Shown here piece after piece: positions 7,644 to 14,710 of a stretch of 64,000 bases of DNA. The number at the start of each line of letters is the position of its first letter. The first letter of the stretch is position 1. Origin of the DNA: Desulfarculus sp. (GTDB lineage Bacteria > Desulfobacterota > Desulfarculia > Desulfarculales > Desulfarculaceae); the NCBI GenBank assembly GCA_016218705.1, contig JACRDC010000035.1, forward strand, positions 1 through 64,000. Direction: 5' to 3'. The notes below the pieces were generated by a model. The model searched no databases and was not told the origin of the DNA. It saw nothing but the letters and a program-made list of their open reading frames with translations. The position numbers and the translations under genes were made by a program.

Positions 7644-8929
7644 GCCGGCGCTCCTTTCAACAAGGCCGCCGCCTCGTCCACGGCGCGTTGCACGGCCCCC
7701 CGGTGGGCACGGCAGAACTCCAAGCCGGCCTGGCCCATGGCCCGGGCCTCGGGGGGATGGTCCAACAGGCGCCCCCAGGCCGTGGCCAGCTCTTCGGCGC
7801 CCTTAAGGCGCAGACCACCGCCGCACTCCTCCAGGCCCCGGGCCATTTCCAGGAAATTGTGGGTGTGCGGTCCGAAGAGCACCGGCACCCCCTGGGCCGC
7901 CGGCTCCAGCAAGTTGTGTCCGCCCACCGGCACCAGGGAGCCGCCCACGAACGCCGCCTGGGCCAAGGCATAGGCCTGGGCCAGGCGTCCCAGCAGGTCC
8001 AGTACCACCACCTGGGTGCCCGCTGGCGGCGCGCCCTGGGACAGACAGGCCGCGCTCAACCCCAGGCCAGCGGCTAGGCGCGAGAGCTCCCGGCCCCGCT
8101 CCACCTGGCGGGGGGCCAGCACCAGGGCCAGGCCCTCGTGGCCGGCGTCCAGGGATTGGTAGGCCTTAAGACACGCCTCTTCCTCGCCGGGGTGGGTGGA
8201 GCCGGCCACCAGCACCCGCCGCCCGGTCAGGCCCAACTCGGCGGCCAGGGCCTGGCGAGTCTCGGCATCCAGCAAGGCCGGCGCGCTGTCGAACTTGAGA
8301 TTGCCGCCCACGGCCAGCCGCACCGGCTCCACCCCCACCTGGAGCAGGCGCTCCTGGTCCACGCCAGTCTGCACCAGGATGCGCGAAAAACCATTCAGCA
8401 GGCCGCGGGCCAGGGGGCCGGCGCGGCGATAACCCCGGAAGGTGCGGGGGCTAACGCGGCCGTTGACCAATAGGCTGGGCACCCCCCGCCGGGCCAAGCC
8501 CCAATTCCAGCCTGGCCAGATGTCGCCCTCCACCAGGCAGAACAGGGCCGGCCGCAGACGGTTCAAAAGCCGCTCCACGTTCCAGTACAGATCCAGGGGG
8601 CGCACGAAAAGGCTGACGCCGGCTTGCCCCGCCAGTTCCTGCCGAGCCACGGCCAGGCCCTGGGCCGTGGCCACCGACAAGGCCAGGGGCCGCTCCGGGA
8701 AGCGTTGGCCCAGGGCCTTGATTAGCGGCAGGGTGGAGCGCACCTCGCCCACGCTCAAGGCGTGCAGCCAGATACCTCCCGCCGAGGGCGGCGGCAGCCA
8801 GGCTGAGCCCAGGCCCAGGCGAGCGGCTGCGATGGTCCGGTAGCGGCCCTTGGCCAGGCGGGCTGCCAAGAGTGGGGCCGCCAGGGCCAGGCCCCCGGCC
8901 AAGGCCAGGTTGTAGGGCAATAGCATCAC
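7640..8929 (-). CDS. waaA: 3-deoxy-D-manno-octulosonic acid transferase (Kdo transferase)
   Basis: 429 residues starting MMLLPYNLA with an N-terminal membrane anchor. IWLHALSVGEVRST carries the conserved SVGE active-site region, EGDIWPGWNW and the C-terminal GGSLVPVGGHNLLEPAA block are WaaA signatures. It transfers Kdo from CMP-Kdo to lipid IVA at the inner membrane. Four-base overlaps with the ArnD-like gene upstream and lpxK downstream tie it into the LPS operon. Whether one or two Kdo residues are added cannot be told. Confidence 0.93.
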   Translation of the reverse strand: MMLLPYNLALAGGLALAAPLLAARLAKGRYRTIAAARLGLGSAWLPPPSAGGIWLHALSVGEVRSTLPLIKALGQRFPERPLALSVATAQGLAVARQELAGQAGVSLFVRPLDLYWNVERLLNRLRPALFCLVEGDIWPGWNWGLARRGVPSLLVNGRVSPRTFRGYRRAGPLARGLLNGFSRILVQTGVDQERLLQVGVEPVRLAVGGNLKFDSAPALLDAETRQALAAELGLTGRRVLVAGSTHPGEEEACLKAYQSLDAGHEGLALVLAPRQVERGRELSRLAAGLGLSAACLSQGAPPAGTQVVVLDLLGRLAQAYALAQAAFVGGSLVPVGGHNLLEPAAQGVPVLFGPHTHNFLEMARGLEECGGGLRLKGAEELATAWGRLLDHPPEARAMGQAGLEFCRAHRGAVQRAVDEAAALLKGAPA

Positions 8930-9870
8930 GCCCCGGCCCTGGCCAGGGCCGAGGGTTGGAAGGCCAGCTCGCCGGCCCGGCCCAGCACCGTGCCCCAGGC
9001 GATGGCCTCGGCCGGCAGGGGGGCCTGAGCGGCCTGGCGGGCGGCATCCACGAGGCGCTCAAACACCACCCCGCGCTCCAGCAGGATGTGTAGGAACTGG
9101 CGCAGGACCGGGGCCATCTGGCGTCCCTCCACCTCGCCGTGCAGGGTGAAGACGTTGAGCCCGCCCGGGACCACTTGGCCGGCCAGGTAGCGCCCGGCAT
9201 TGCCCGGGTTCACCTGGGGCAGGCCCAAGACCTCGTCCAGGCTGGGCATGGTGGTGGGCAGCTCGATCAGCGGCAGGGCGCGGCCAGCCACCAGGGGCCG
9301 GAAGGGGCGCGCGCCCCGGGTGCAGGAGACGTGGGTCAGGCCCATGGCGGCCATGGCGGCTAGCGCCGCTTCGTTGACCTGCCAGCCAGGCGAGGCGAAG
9401 CTGGCCGGCGCCATGCCGGTTATCTCGCGGAAGAGACCAGCGGCCAGCTCCAGTTGGCGGCGGGTGCGGCTGGCGTCCAGGTGGCGCACGCGGTCATGCC
9501 AATAGACGTGGTCCCAGCCGTGCAGGCCCACTTCGTGCCCCTCGTTGATGAGGCGATTGAGCAAGCCCGGGGCGCTACGGGCGATGATGGGGCCAGGCAG
9601 CAGCAGGCCGTAGAGCATGGTGATGGGGCCGTAGGCCGCCGCCGCGCCGGAGTGCATCTGCTTTTTCAGGAACCCAGGCCGGAAGACGCGCTTCAGGGCG
9701 CGGCCCGAGTGGTCCGGCCCCATGGCCACGAAGAACGAGGCCTTGAGCCCCAACTCGCCTAAAATGTCGGCCAGGCGCCGGGTGCCGTCCAAAAGCCCCA
9801 CCTTGGTGTCCACGTCCACCTTGAGCACCAGGCGGGTGGCGGGGGCGGCGGGACTTTGGGGCTCGGGCAT
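8926..9870 (-). CDS. ArnD/NaxD-like polyprenyl-phosphate amino-sugar deformylase/deacetylase
   Basis: 314 residues of the NodB polysaccharide-deacetylase fold. KVDVDT near residue 17 gives the metal-binding Asp, and HEVGLHGWDHVYWHD supplies the metal His pair. The segments SFFVAMGPDHSGRALKR, SPGWQVNEAAL and RPFRPL track E. coli ArnD almost block by block. ArnD deformylates undecaprenyl-phosphate-Ara4FN; the related Francisella NaxD deacetylates undecaprenyl-phosphate-GalNAc. With no ArnA or ArnB gene nearby, the NaxD-type role is a serious alternative. It follows the arnC-like gene after a 150-bp hairpin element. Confidence 0.87.
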   Translation of the reverse strand: MPEPQSPAAPATRLVLKVDVDTKVGLLDGTRRLADILGELGLKASFFVAMGPDHSGRALKRVFRPGFLKKQMHSGAAAAYGPITMLYGLLLPGPIIARSAPGLLNRLINEGHEVGLHGWDHVYWHDRVRHLDASRTRRQLELAAGLFREITGMAPASFASPGWQVNEAALAAMAAMGLTHVSCTRGARPFRPLVAGRALPLIELPTTMPSLDEVLGLPQVNPGNAGRYLAGQVVPGGLNVFTLHGEVEGRQMAPVLRQFLHILLERGVVFERLVDAARQAAQAPLPAEAIAWGTVLGRAGELAFQPSALARAGA

Positions 9871-9895
9871 GCTGAACTACCCCCGTGGCGGCTTT

Positions 9896-10045
9896 TACCA
9901 ACTTGCGGCCAACCTAGTGGTTTGGCCGCAAGTTGGTATGCGGGCCATGGACGGCCCGCCGGGCGCGAAAGCGCCCGGGAGGCAGGGCAAAACCACGCTT
10001 TTGCCCTGCCGATAAGCAATCAAAGCCATGGATGGCTTTGATTGC
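9896..10045. repeat. 150-bp five-hairpin element, copy 1
   Basis: Five inverted repeats follow each other with hardly any gap: 9896-9912/9922-9938 (17 bp), 9940-9946/9953-9959, 9959-9966/9971-9978 with a GAAA loop, 9981-9992/9999-10010 (12 bp) and 10016-10029/10032-10045 (14 bp). The element starts 7 bases past the arnC-like stop on the minus strand and ends 25 bases before the ArnD-like start. Copy 2 has exactly the same length and hairpin order. It could be a terminator or mRNA stabiliser, a MITE-like repeat, or a structured RNA. Confidence 0.85.
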
Positions 10046-10052
10046 ATCTAAA

Positions 10053-10997
10053 TTAGTCCCGCGTCTCGCGGATGACGAAGCGCGGCCGGCGGCGCACCTC
10101 GCGGTAGATACGCCCCACATACTCGCCGATGAGCCCCACCCCCAGGATCTGCAGGCCCACGAAGACGAAGAGGATGGCGAACAGGGTGAAGACACCTTCC
10201 ACCTCCGGCCCCACGATGAGCCGGCGGATGAATAGGAAGCAGCCAAAGGCCAGGCCCACCAGGGCCACCAGGGAGCCCACGAAGCTGACGAACTGGATGG
10301 GCAGCACCGAGAAGCCGGTCATCAGATCGAATTGCAGGCGCAAGAGCTGCAAGGGGCCGTATTTGGAGCGCCCGCCCTGACGCTCGGCGTGGCCCACGGG
10401 TATCTCCACCACCTGGGAGGCGTAGGTGTTGGCCAAGGCCGGGATAAAGCTGCTGGTCTCCTGGCATTCGTTCATGGCCTGAACCACCTCGCGGCGGTAG
10501 GCCCGGAGCATGCAGCCATAATCCTTGAGGTCCACCCCCACCACCCGGCTGGTGATGCGGTTGACGATCATGGAGGGGAAGGTGCGCAGCCAGGAGTCCT
10601 GCCGGAACTGGCGCCAGCCGCCCACCACGTCGTAGCCCTCCTCCAGCTTGGCCACCAGCTTGGGCACGTCCTCGGGCGGGTTTTGCAGATCAGCGTCCAG
10701 GGTGGCCACCACCTGGCCACGCACCCGCTCGAAACCGGCGAAGACCGCCATGTGCTGGCCGTAGTTGCGGTTGAAGCGCACCAGGCGCACGTGGCCGTCG
10801 GCCTGCTGGATGCCTTCCAGGAGCTTCCAGGAGCGATCGCGGGAGCCATCATCCACGTAGATGACCTCCCAGGCGTAGCTCATGGCGTTCAGGGTGGTGG
10901 CCAGGCGGGCGTGCAACTCCGCCAGGTTCTCCTCCTCGTTGAATACCGGTATGACCACCGACAAATAGGGGCAATCCGGCGCGGTCTGCTGCTCCAT
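10053..10997 (-). CDS. ArnC-like undecaprenyl-phosphate glycosyltransferase (GT2)
   Basis: 314 residues from MEQQTAPDCPYLSVVIPV. GT2 motifs are clear: PVFNEEENL, DDGS, DADLQNPPED, and GGRSKYG. RNYGQHMAVFAGF, DYGCMLRAYRREV and two C-terminal transmembrane helices match ArnC, which loads a sugar from a UDP donor onto undecaprenyl phosphate. Without ArnA/ArnB the donor may be UDP-N-acetylhexosamine, as for Francisella FlmF2. The ATG at 10997 has GGAGG five bases upstream; a promoter with perfect 17-base spacing lies at 11046-11074. It is bracketed by the two 150-bp repeats. Confidence 0.87.
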   Translation of the reverse strand: MEQQTAPDCPYLSVVIPVFNEEENLAELHARLATTLNAMSYAWEVIYVDDGSRDRSWKLLEGIQQADGHVRLVRFNRNYGQHMAVFAGFERVRGQVVATLDADLQNPPEDVPKLVAKLEEGYDVVGGWRQFRQDSWLRTFPSMIVNRITSRVVGVDLKDYGCMLRAYRREVVQAMNECQETSSFIPALANTYASQVVEIPVGHAERQGGRSKYGPLQLLRLQFDLMTGFSVLPIQFVSFVGSLVALVGLAFGCFLFIRRLIVGPEVEGVFTLFAILFVFVGLQILGVGLIGEYVGRIYREVRRRPRFVIRETRD

Positions 10998-11045
10998 GTC
11001 AACCTCCGCCAAGGCACCAAAGCCAAGCGAGCAACTCATGGGCTA

Positions 11046-11074
11046 CTATTACAGGTGCGCGCCGGGGAAATCAA
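11046..11074 (-). promoter_or_regulatory. Candidate sigma-70 promoter of the arnC-like gene
   Basis: On the minus strand TTGATT (11069-11074), a 17-base spacer and TAATAG (11046-11051). It lies between repeat copy 2 and the gene start, so the arnC-like gene may be transcribed separately from the upstream arnT-like genes. Confidence 0.5.
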
Positions 11075-11087
11075 GACAGGGGGGTTA

Positions 11088-11237
11088 TACCAAGTTGAGA
11101 TCAAAATATTAATTTGATCGCAACTTGGTATGCGGGCCATGGATGGCCCGCCGGGCGCGAAAGCGCCCGGGAGGCCGGGCAAAAACACTCTTTTGCCCGG
11201 CCGATCAGCAATCAAAGCCATGGATGGCTTTGATTGC
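11088..11237. repeat. 150-bp five-hairpin element, copy 2
   Basis: Same architecture as copy 1. The first stem pairs 11088-11107 with 11111-11130 with one mismatch near its middle and differs in sequence from copy 1 while keeping pairing. The GAAA-loop hairpin (about 11151-11170) and the last stem (11208-11237) are identical to copy 1. The fourth stem (11173-11202) differs by a compensated A-T to C-G change. It begins 9 bases after the stop of the upstream arnT-like gene on the minus strand. Confidence 0.85.
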
Positions 11238-11246
11238 ATATTGAAG

Positions 11247-12956
11247 TCAGAGGGGGCGGTTGGCGAACAGGACCTTGTCGCCCACACTCGCCCACGGGTA
11301 ATGCTTGAAGCCCTCCACGTTCTTGAAGCGCTCCTGGAAGCGGGCGTATTCGTCGCTGAAGCACAGCACCACCACACGCCGGCGGCTATCCCTCATCAGG
11401 GCCATCAGCTCGCCGGGGCCGGGCAGGAACCACTGGGCGGCCTGGGGGTCGCGGGCGCGGCCGAACTCCAGCTCGCCCCAATTGCCGGCCACCACCACCC
11501 GCCGGCCGGTGTACAAGGGCAGGCCCTGGAAGTAGTCGCCAAAGGAGACCAGCACGTCCTCGGCGGCCAGGCGTCCCTTGAGAATGGCGGCCAACTGCTT
11601 GACCGAGCGGTACTCTTCCAGGCGGGGCGCGGCCAGGGACACGCACAGCACCACCCCGGCCGCCACCAACAGCGGGGCCGCCAGCCCGGCCCAGGCCCGG
11701 CCCCTGATGGCATACAGGCCCAGACCCAGCCCCGCCAGCAAGAGGGGACCTATCAAAAGGAAGGCCCCCACTTGGTCGTAGCCGATGTCGGGGCTAAGGG
11801 CCGGCACCAGGGGCAGGCCGCAGGCCGCGGCCACCGCGCAGGCCGCCAAGGCCGTCACCCCCCAGCGCACCCCGGGTGGGGCCGCTTCCTGCCGCAAGTC
11901 CGCCAGGGGCCTGATGAGGAGCGCCGCCAGGGGCCGGCCCATGAGGAGCGCCAGGGGCGGCAGCATGGGCAGGGCGTAATGCATCATCTTGGAGGAGCCG
12001 GCGGACAGAAAGAGCAGGAAGGAGCCCAGCCACACCGCCGGCAGCAGCCAAGGCCGGTTGGGCGTGGCCAGCCAGGCCTTGCCCGGCCAAGTCTGCTTGA
12101 GTCCCCAGGGCAAAAAGGCCACCCAGGGCAGGAAGCCCGCGGGCAACAGCGGCAAATAGTACCAGAAGGGTTGATGGCGCTTGAACTCCTGGCCGGCCAC
12201 CAGGCGGCCCACGTTTTCGTGCAGGAAGTAGGCCGGGTACTCGGGGTTGGCCAGGCTGACCAGGATGTTCCAGGGCGCCACCAGCACCAGGAACAGCAAG
12301 GCCCCCCGCCAGTCGGCCAGGCGCCTGAGCAGGGCCCACTCCCGCCCCAAGAGGGCAAACAGCACCACGGCCATGGCCGGCAGGCCCGGACCCAGGAGGC
12401 CCTTGGTCAAGAAGCCCACCGCGCAGCCCATCCAGAAGAGATAGCCGCCCCAGCGCCGGCCCAGGCGCAGCTCCCAGGCCCCGTACACGGCCAGCACCAC
12501 CCCGAAGCACAGCACCATGTCCACGATGAGCACCCAGGACAGGGCCATGAACATCAGCGAGGTGGCCAGGCAGAGCGCGGCCATGAAGCCGCTCCTGGCC
12601 TCCCACAGGGAGCGCCCCAGCAGGTACACCAAGAGCACCGTCAGGGTGGCAAACAGGGCCGGCGTGATCCTGGCCGACCAGTCGGAGATGCCGAATATCT
12701 TGAAGGAGCCGGCCACCAGCCAATAGGTTAGGATGGGCTTCTCGAAGTACTTGACGTAGTTCAGGCGGGGGGTGACCCAGTCGCCGCTCTGAACCATCTC
12801 GCGGGCGATTTCGCCGTAGCGGGCCTCGTCGGTTTCCCACAGGCTGCGCTGGCCCAATAGGCCGAAGAACAACAGCCCGCACAGGGCCAGCAAGACCAGG
12901 GGATAGGCCAGGTCGCCCCAGGGGCGCGGTGGCTGGGCGGCGGGGCGCGGGCTCAT
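11247..12956 (-). CDS. ArnT-like lipid-linked sugar glycosyltransferase (GT83), paralogue 1
   Basis: 569 residues, about 12 transmembrane helices. WETDEARYGEIAREMVQSGDWVTP near the N-terminus contains the periplasmic loop with the DE pair that is catalytic in ArnT, and YFEKPILTYWL follows as in the family. ArnT enzymes transfer an aminosugar from undecaprenyl phosphate to lipid A phosphates on the periplasmic side. The ATG at 12956 overlaps the stop of the second ArnT-like gene; in-frame sequence upstream is its shadow. The pair could act on different lipid A positions or acceptors. Confidence 0.87.
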   Translation of the reverse strand: MSPRPAAQPPRPWGDLAYPLVLLALCGLLFFGLLGQRSLWETDEARYGEIAREMVQSGDWVTPRLNYVKYFEKPILTYWLVAGSFKIFGISDWSARITPALFATLTVLLVYLLGRSLWEARSGFMAALCLATSLMFMALSWVLIVDMVLCFGVVLAVYGAWELRLGRRWGGYLFWMGCAVGFLTKGLLGPGLPAMAVVLFALLGREWALLRRLADWRGALLFLVLVAPWNILVSLANPEYPAYFLHENVGRLVAGQEFKRHQPFWYYLPLLPAGFLPWVAFLPWGLKQTWPGKAWLATPNRPWLLPAVWLGSFLLFLSAGSSKMMHYALPMLPPLALLMGRPLAALLIRPLADLRQEAAPPGVRWGVTALAACAVAAACGLPLVPALSPDIGYDQVGAFLLIGPLLLAGLGLGLYAIRGRAWAGLAAPLLVAAGVVLCVSLAAPRLEEYRSVKQLAAILKGRLAAEDVLVSFGDYFQGLPLYTGRRVVVAGNWGELEFGRARDPQAAQWFLPGPGELMALMRDSRRRVVVLCFSDEYARFQERFKNVEGFKHYPWASVGDKVLFANRPL

Positions 12957-14710
12957 GGCCGGCCCCCTTGCCCCCCAGGTTCGCGGTTGATGCGCCGGCC
13001 CCAAAGCTCATGTCCCCCGCCGTTACCGCCCAGCAGGTAGCCCTGGTAACGCGCCACCTCCAGGAAGCCCGGCACCTCCTTGAGCCGGGGCAACAGGCTC
13101 ACCCGGGTCAGCACCAAGAGCGGCTCGCGCTCGCCCAGGCGCCGCGCCAGCTCCTCCTGGTCCTTGTGACGCAGACGCGGTATCTCGCGGTCCAGGTAGA
13201 ACAGCAGCGAAGGCTTCCACAGGCCGAAGGTGACGACCGCGGCCTGTCCGGCCCCGCGCTCTCTTATCTCGCGGGCCATCTGGCGGGCCGGGTCCTGCAC
13301 CAGGGCCGAGCCCTGGGGCAACAGGCCCAGCATCATCACCCCGCACAAGAGGGCGCCCCCCAGGGCCAGCGCCGGCCCCAAGAGCTTGGCCCGTCCGCCG
13401 CGCACCAGCAGGCGCGCCCCCATGAGGGTGCCGGCCAGGGCCAGGGCGGCCAAGAGTGGCCACAGCCACAGGACGGGCGCCAGTTCGGGCAGGGCGTACT
13501 CGCTGCTGTCGGGGCGGATGCTGGCCTGGATTTTGTCCCAGGCCAGGGGCAGGCCGGCGGGCAGAGCCAGGAAAACCGCCAGGAACAAGCCGCCCAGGCC
13601 GTACAGGCCGCCCCAGAAGACCCCGCGCGCCAGGCGCCCGCCAGCCTCGCCGGCGCCCAGGCGCCACAGGTGATAGCCGGCCAGCACCGCCACAAAGGGC
13701 ATGGCCGGCTGCACGTAGTTGATCTGCTTGGTGGCGGCCAGGGTGAAGACCACCAGCACCACCAGCACCGCGATGGCCGCGAAGAGACGCAGGCGGGCCA
13801 GGGGGTCGGCGGCGCGGGCGGCACGGCTGTTCTTGGCCAAGGCGCTGCCCAGGGCCGGTAGGGCGGCCACCGAGAAGGCGTAGCCCCCCAGGAGCAGCAC
13901 CGGCAGGTAATAGAAATAACCACCGCCGTGGCCCAGGAGCACCTCGCTGAAGCGGCGCAGGTTCTGGGAGACGAAGAAGGCCTGCCAGAGCTTGTCGCCC
14001 AGGCGCCAGAAGGCCAGGCCGTACCAGGGCAGGTTGACCGCCACAAAGATGAGAAGGCCCCAGTGAATCTGCGCCCGCTTGAGGATGGCCCACAGCCGGC
14101 CCTGGCACAGGGCGTGGATCAGGCAGGCGGGCAGCACCACCGCCGGGGCCACCGGCCCCTTGGTCAAGAAGGCCAGGCCCAGGCCCAGCCAGGCGGCCAG
14201 GTACCAGGGTCGGTCCCGGGGCGGCGGGGTTTCGCTGGCCAGGAAGAAGCCCCCCAGGGCCAGAGTGGTGAAGAGGGTCAGGGGCATGTCGGTGAGGCAG
14301 GCCCGGCCCACCAGGGCGTTGAGCGGCATGAAGGCAAAGGCCGCGGCGGACAGCGTGGCCGCCGCCAGGCTGCCCGAGACGCGCCAGACCAGATAGCCCA
14401 CGGCCAACACCAGCAGGAAGGCGCTCACCGCCGAGGGCAGGCGAGCGGCCCACTCGCCCGGCCCCACCAGCCAGTTGGTGGCGGTCATGGCCCAGAAGAG
14501 CAGGATGGGCTTTTCCAGATAGGGCTGGCCATTGAGGTGGGGAATGAGGTAATCGCCGCGCTGGGCCATGGCCGCCACGGCGGCGGCGTACTCGCCCTCG
14601 TCGCGGTCGGAGAGCGGCATGTCCCCCAGTTGGGCGAAGTACAGCGCCCCGGCCAAGACCACCACGGCCAGGGCCAGGGCCGGCCAGGGGCCGTGGGCTT
14701 GGGCCTTCAT
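12953..14710 (-). CDS. ArnT-like lipid-linked sugar glycosyltransferase (GT83), paralogue 2
   Basis: 585 residues, polytopic. MPLSDRDEGEYAAAVAAMAQ with the DE pair, then YLEKPILLFWAM, mark the ArnT/PMT-like superfamily. It diverges strongly from paralogue 1, with DEGEY replacing DEARY, so it is an old duplication, not a recent copy. The ATG at 14710 overlaps the PAP2 stop (ATGA). A C-terminal soluble domain of about 150 residues follows the last membrane helices. Donor is presumably the product of the arnC/arnD-like pair; acceptor unknown. Confidence 0.85.
   Translation of the reverse strand: MKAQAHGPWPALALAVVVLAGALYFAQLGDMPLSDRDEGEYAAAVAAMAQRGDYLIPHLNGQPYLEKPILLFWAMTATNWLVGPGEWAARLPSAVSAFLLVLAVGYLVWRVSGSLAAATLSAAAFAFMPLNALVGRACLTDMPLTLFTTLALGGFFLASETPPPRDRPWYLAAWLGLGLAFLTKGPVAPAVVLPACLIHALCQGRLWAILKRAQIHWGLLIFVAVNLPWYGLAFWRLGDKLWQAFFVSQNLRRFSEVLLGHGGGYFYYLPVLLLGGYAFSVAALPALGSALAKNSRAARAADPLARLRLFAAIAVLVVLVVFTLAATKQINYVQPAMPFVAVLAGYHLWRLGAGEAGGRLARGVFWGGLYGLGGLFLAVFLALPAGLPLAWDKIQASIRPDSSEYALPELAPVLWLWPLLAALALAGTLMGARLLVRGGRAKLLGPALALGGALLCGVMMLGLLPQGSALVQDPARQMAREIRERGAGQAAVVTFGLWKPSLLFYLDREIPRLRHKDQEELARRLGEREPLLVLTRVSLLPRLKEVPGFLEVARYQGYLLGGNGGGHELWGRRINREPGGQGGRP

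Follow-up and report, generated by a model that had tools for sequence, protein, structure and literature searches.

Twin five-hairpin repeats among lipid A genes of Desulfarculus sp. as probable copies of a MITE-like mobile element with a hairpin core found across the order

Two hairpin-chain repeats at the ends of arn-like genes

The stretch of DNA analyzed here (hereafter the window) comprises 64,000 nucleotides from Desulfarculus sp. and carries genes resembling arnD, arnC and arnT on its minus strand, with lpxK, a KDO transferase gene and msbA as their neighbors (Table 1). The lipid A setting noted in an earlier, sequence-only reading of this region is therefore correct, with the qualification that all three arn-like matches fall below the curated cut-offs of the respective models. 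Two repeat cores at positions 9896-10045 and 11088-11237 are present in direct orientation, exhibit 87% identity over 161 bp and feature five hairpins, HP1 to HP5, in identical order. This direct repeat, together with folding z-scores of -11.6 for copy 1 and -13.5 for copy 2 against dinucleotide shuffles, bears out the twin five-hairpin architecture described earlier. ORFs running across the two copies are chance frames.

The length of 150 bases given in the sequence-only reading holds true for the span of the hairpins, while the whole elements are longer, amounting to 157 and 159 bp. The shorter value was obtained because the right ends of both copies are damaged. The reported spacing of 7-9 bases to a stop codon was likewise correct, i.e., 7 and 9 bases when read on the minus strand, which carries the genes, as was the placement at 3' ends for the two window copies. 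These 7-9 bases between HP5 and the stop are occupied by the degenerate right inverted repeat, with the stop codon serving as the target-site duplication. In complete agreement with the first description, the GAAA-loop stem and the last stem do not differ between copies 1 and 2. Differences in stems 1 and 4, which had been presented as compensated, are mostly paired, e.g., GGCAGGG/CCCTGCC vs. GGCCGGG/CCCGGCC in stem 4, but mismatches remain in stem 1 of copy 2, which is 91% complementary.

Table 1. Positions of the arn-like genes and of the parts of both repeat copies within the window.
Feature	Position	Strand	Remarks
arnD-like polysaccharide deacetylase gene, downstream of copy 1	8926..9870	-	NF011923 E=1.1e-55 (below curated cut-off); PF01522
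arnC-like glycosyltransferase gene, between copies	10053..11039	-	NF007986 E=1.9e-112 (below curated cut-off); PF00535
arnT-like PMT-family gene, stop is copy 2 target	11247..13004	-	NF009784 E=4.8e-65 (below curated cut-off); PF02366
Copy 1, left target duplication	9893..9895	.	TTT, apparently mutated from TTA
Copy 1, entire element	9896..10052	+	157 bp, HP1 to HP5; absent from G003 and G001
Copy 1, HP1	9896..9938	+	left inverted repeat folded upon its own inverse
Copy 1, HP2	9940..9959	+	loop AUGGAC; ANGGAN hexaloop, C-G closed stem
Copy 1, HP3	9960..9977	+	GAAA loop
Copy 1, HP4	9981..10010	+	GGCAAAACCACGCTTTTGCC core
Copy 1, HP5	10016..10045	+	loop AUGGAU; stem is inner right inverted repeat
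Copy 1, decayed right end	10046..10052	+	ATCTAAA vs. consensus ATATTGGTA of intact copies
Copy 1, right target duplication	10053..10055	-	TTA, i.e., TAA stop of arnC-like gene
Copy 2, left target duplication	11085..11087	.	TTA, vs. TCA on the right
Copy 2, entire element	11088..11246	+	159 bp; present in G003, absent from G001
Copy 2, HP1	11088..11130	+	
Copy 2, HP2	11132..11151	+	loop AUGGAU
Copy 2, HP3	11152..11169	+	GAAA loop
Copy 2, HP4	11173..11202	+	
Copy 2, HP5	11208..11237	+	loop AUGGAU
Copy 2, decayed right end	11238..11246	+	ATATTGAAG vs. consensus ATATTGGTA
Copy 2, right target duplication	11247..11249	-	TCA, i.e., TGA stop of arnT-like gene

Dispersed copies, inverted ends and empty sites

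Searches of the source genome revealed at least 40 near full-length copies. Among the matches listed, 299 one-sided ones (two per hairpin) put the left hairpin at about 150 occurrences, and 90 with no more than one mismatch represent the last hairpin, so that the copy number in the source genome lies at roughly 90-150 among the matches listed, the sites being unrelated. Complete copies (n = 45) range from 80 to 206 bp, most of them measuring 161 bp. They are delimited by terminal inverted repeats, TACCAAGTTGCGATCAAA on the left and the imperfect inverse TACCAATATGCAATCAAA on the right, where the end can also be read as TACCAATATGC..., and a perfect 3-bp TNA target duplication flanks 39 of the 45. 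For copy 1 in the window, comparison with other copies suggests a duplication that is apparently damaged (TTT on the left, TTA on the right). Empty sites are provided by congeners: G003 lacks copy 1 (...GTGGCGGC-CTAA-TCCCGCG) and contains copy 2, while G001 has neither copy and a single TCA at the empty copy 2 site.

The element of about 159 bp thus has inverted ends and a TNA duplication, it is dispersed in dozens of copies, and congeners have empty sites. It is short and non-coding and in all these respects conforms to MITEs. The twin repeats are very probably copies of one such non-autonomous, MITE-like mobile element, which would be moved by a DDE transposase acting in trans on its ends.

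Some observations stand against the MITE reading. First, an autonomous partner was found neither in the source genome, where transposases of the families PF01609 and PF13359 gave no match, nor in the relative G007, a genome consisting of one contig of 3,655,731 bp. There, no autonomous element of 1-3 kb lies between matching ends, the end pattern gave only pairs of about 210, 137 and 41-46 bp, and 5 kb read around each of two single ends contained no recognizable transposase-like ORF. The loci read in G031 and G052 did not include an autonomous relative either; these searches were limited, and draft assemblies lose insertion sequences. Locus L080 of G031 was considered as an autonomous end and rejected, as it is another non-autonomous repeat with matching ends. 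Second, HP2, the loop of HP4 and that of HP5 are conserved from genus to genus, which drift of a selfish element leaves unexplained.

The window copies abut stop codons because TNA covers both TAA and TGA on either strand, and the right duplications TTA (10053-10055) and TCA (11247-11249) are the TAA and TGA stops of the arnC-like and arnT-like genes on the opposite strand. Insertion at a TNA stop codon would restore the stop and would thereby be harmless. Stop-codon insertions make up 11 of the 45 source-genome copies, and the share expected from the intergenic-or-stop TNA/YTNAR sites of the window is 12.7-12.9%. With this only mild excess, stop-codon targeting as a rule was rejected.

Pairing of the stems and its probable origin

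Stem pairs were analyzed in 30 source-genome copies of equal length. Pairs with changes on both sides leading to a new Watson-Crick pair were observed 11 times, as compared to 0.28 expected if changes were independent. Transversions, which are impossible via a wobble intermediate, account for four of these 11 changes, and one-sided stem changes (10 G-T, 21 A-C) do not show any preference for G-U on the plus strand. Two further compensated pairs, private to the G003 ortholog of copy 2, lie in HP1. Within the genus, 14 cells in HP2-HP5 are changed on both sides against a shuffle mean of 2.1, an excess that is predicted by arm correction as well as by selection.

Template switching between hairpin arms has been described as a source of such paired changes (PMC8794818). 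During replication, it would copy one arm of a hairpin onto the other and in this way keep stems paired. Judged from compensated pairs that come without wobble preference, arm correction by template switching would be the simplest explanation for the recent insertions. Selection on a plus-strand RNA as the cause of compensation is not supported by the G-T vs. A-C counts, and the earlier statement that selection on structure is implied likewise finds no support; compensation without G-U preference fits arm correction within palindromes. Deviation from the consensus affects 2.2% of paired and 9.0% of unpaired positions, and given these rarer changes at paired positions constraint beyond arm copying is possible. 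Inversion of the HP1 loop, considered as a further mark of template switching, is a weak one, being limited to one or two copies (L006, L055).

According to the sequence-only reading, the repeats would be just a MITE if copies with decaying stems were numerous and scattered over unrelated positions. Many unrelated copies indeed exist, but their stems are repaired and not decaying. Such repaired stems constitute a natural data set for hairpin repair by template switching, a process that can mimic the covariation of functional RNAs.

A hairpin core with exchangeable ends across the order

A covariance model was built on HP2-HP5 and 60 relatives were searched with it, as had been proposed along with the first description. 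The hairpin chain was recovered from 12 of the 60, all within one order, and was found neither in genomes of genus g4 nor in the other orders among these relatives. The detail given by the model covers six genomes. Judged by the pattern of the HP4 core, Dethiosulfatarculus sandiegensis, Desulfocarbo indianensis and Desulfarculus MAGs are among the carriers.

Stems and ends vary between the genera of the order. Copies in G007 possess GAGGCYGCTGCACGG ends and a 5-bp duplication that was detected for 19 of 23 long and four of five short (41-137 bp) copies, i.e., for 23 of 28 in total. End hairpins of the G007 type also occur solo as units of 41-46 bp with duplications, and one G007-type copy (L030) is present in the source genome. 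In G006, insertions reside inside terminator-like hairpins that are duplicated as a whole (13-31 bp) in 11 out of 14 cases, each exceeding every mismatched-pair control. Ends of the CTAG type are found in G009 and G020. In other families, TACCAAGTTGC ends occur on unrelated interiors (G031 and G052). Modular forms range from HP1 alone and HP1 with a short HP5 to copies without HP4 and copies bearing an extra hairpin in the loop of HP2 or HP4.

HP2-HP3-HP4 is an old cassette distributed across the order on at least three unrelated types of transposon ends, and core and ends thus evolve as exchangeable modules. The element would be a composite with the hairpin core placed between end hairpins that are built from the inverted repeat of whichever transposon mobilizes it. 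A non-autonomous element is normally taken for the relic of a single parent transposon. In the present case, the ends are exchanged among mobilizers producing duplications of 3 bp, 5 bp or hairpin length and it is the interior that stays conserved, which suggests that the interior itself is kept.

Comparison with known elements

Ends of IS5-like elements (IS1031/IS427) have TNA as target. The TNA duplication of the copies from the own genus resembles this group, from which the present element differs in that no such transposase was found here. IS1182-like elements insert into palindromes. Insertions in G006, G009 and G020, with ends of the CTAG type and duplication of terminator-like hairpins, may resemble this group; only non-autonomous copies were seen there.

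With the bacterial MITEs Correia/NEMIS, RUP and ERIC (PMC2229807) the present element shares its shortness, the lack of an ORF, terminal inverted repeats, target duplication, dispersal and long stem-loops. In contrast to these, it is GC-rich, forms a chain of separate hairpins instead of one fold and has a core that recurs in elements whose ends and duplication lengths differ. BOX elements from Streptococcus pneumoniae (PMC3049150) are similarly composed of modular hairpins with variable length, inverted ends, duplications and lone modules. In the present case, however, the internal hairpins keep their order across a bacterial order while the ends are swapped, and the likeness is one of architecture.

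GGA loops and the question of CsrA binding

On top of its mobility, the element might act as a CsrA-binding RNA, with the A(N)GGA loops of HP2 and HP5 binding CsrA when transcribed. We regard this possibility as rather unlikely; it would supplement the MITE explanation with a function for the element and not replace it. GGA is present in the HP2 loop of 69 and in the HP5 loop of 65 out of 71 copies from seven genera, always on one strand, and these loops are retained although the HP5 stems are unrelated between genera. The high-affinity motif of Csr/Rsm RNAs is an ANGGAX hexaloop sitting directly on a stem (PMC4005645), and ANGGA loops on stems are indeed found here. Furthermore, csrA occurs in nearly all element-bearing genomes tested and is absent from two tested element-free g4 genomes, although this absence represents a single phylogenetic contrast. 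Genome G002 (97% complete), on the other hand, contains at least 64 copies without any csrA match, orientation relative to genes is unbiased in the source genome and in G007, and the 90 close HP5 copies include several loop changes that break GGA, so that young copies lose the motif freely.

A further-reaching version holds that HP2-HP3-HP4(-HP5) is a strand-specific CsrA-binding module of the whole order, which captured ends from several unrelated transposons, was spread by them and titrates or recruits CsrA through dozens of dispersed copies per genome; this appears improbable but not negligible. If the GGA loops bind CsrA, a global regulator would be rewired by mobile DNA. TwoAYGGAY RNA and the Csr/Rsm sponge RNAs also have two hairpins with AYGGAY or ANGGA loops, while the present element is mobile and occurs in high copy number. 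The TwoAYGGAY (RF01731) and Csr-type Rfam families gave no match with E values up to 5 at the window site and 0.01 in relatives. Other Rfam hits were sub-threshold chance matches, e.g., YenS in the window and Pxr in relatives. The g4 genomes G008 and G012 are nearly complete, belong to the same family and contain neither a csrA match nor the hairpin element.

A cis-acting structure at lipid A gene ends?

The sequence-only reading had interpreted the repeats as insulating expression among the genes for lipid A decoration, with a fresh promoter after copy 2. In its wider form, this proposal posits that a conserved structure acting in cis, as an insulator, a terminator or a protector of mRNA 3' ends, is kept selectively at the ends of lipid A genes. 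Gene contexts, called with a simple codon-score gene caller, are convergent for 15, tandem for 17 and divergent for five source-genome copies. The preponderance of convergent over divergent gaps (15 to 5) would agree with an insulator, as would the strong, repaired hairpins and the copies at stop codons (11/45 vs. 12.7% of candidate sites). Orientation in tandem gaps is unbiased, however (10 vs. 7), contexts in G007 are close to random (7/6/5/5) and the copies adjoin unrelated genes. At the window site, neither a sigma-70-like promoter nor a GC hairpin with U-tract terminator was detected at the elements, and nothing promoter-like was found after copy 2. With about 100 unrelated sites, both window loci empty in congeners and no terminator or promoter signal, a dedicated insulator is very unlikely, and the excess of convergent gaps fits better with tolerance of insertions away from promoters.

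To our knowledge, Y1 elements produce no target duplication, and an assignment to REP/BIME-type palindromes moved by RAYT (Y1 tyrosine transposase), which the abundant intergenic hairpins, high copy number and solo hairpins bring to mind, is contradicted by true inverted ends and by duplications measuring 3, 5 or 13-31 bp and is very improbable.

Structural variants of the element

Several loci deserve mention for their structure. L242, L243 and L240 in G007 each consist of just one hairpin (41-46 bp) that has its inverted ends in full and is flanked by a 5-bp duplication; they rank among the smallest apparently mobile units. A duplicated terminator-like hairpin is located on either side of the element at the G006 loci L117, L138, L175, L191, L193 and L194. 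L251, L256 and L266 in G031 represent a distinct repeat that has TACCA(A/G)GTTGCGATCAAA ends as well, with a GGCGGGGATAAACCCCGCC-type hairpin in its interior. The HP3 arms of copies from G007 and G006 (e.g., L155 and L117) contain a conserved CGAG/CGAG internal loop, in which sheared G-A pairs could arise in tandem.

In the source-genome copies L040, L042, L043, L048-L053 and L060-L063, as well as in L178, L183 and L186-L191 of G006 and L254 of G002, the HP2 loop encloses another small hairpin, ACCCC-stem-GGGGACCCCG. This hairpin is present twice in tandem in L188 and L254, resides in the HP4 loop of L054, and may represent a miniature element in its own right, with hairpin loops as its targets. 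Finally, L085 (G010:C78) is a tandem array with a period of 119 bp, in which the HP2 hairpin occurs at least four times.
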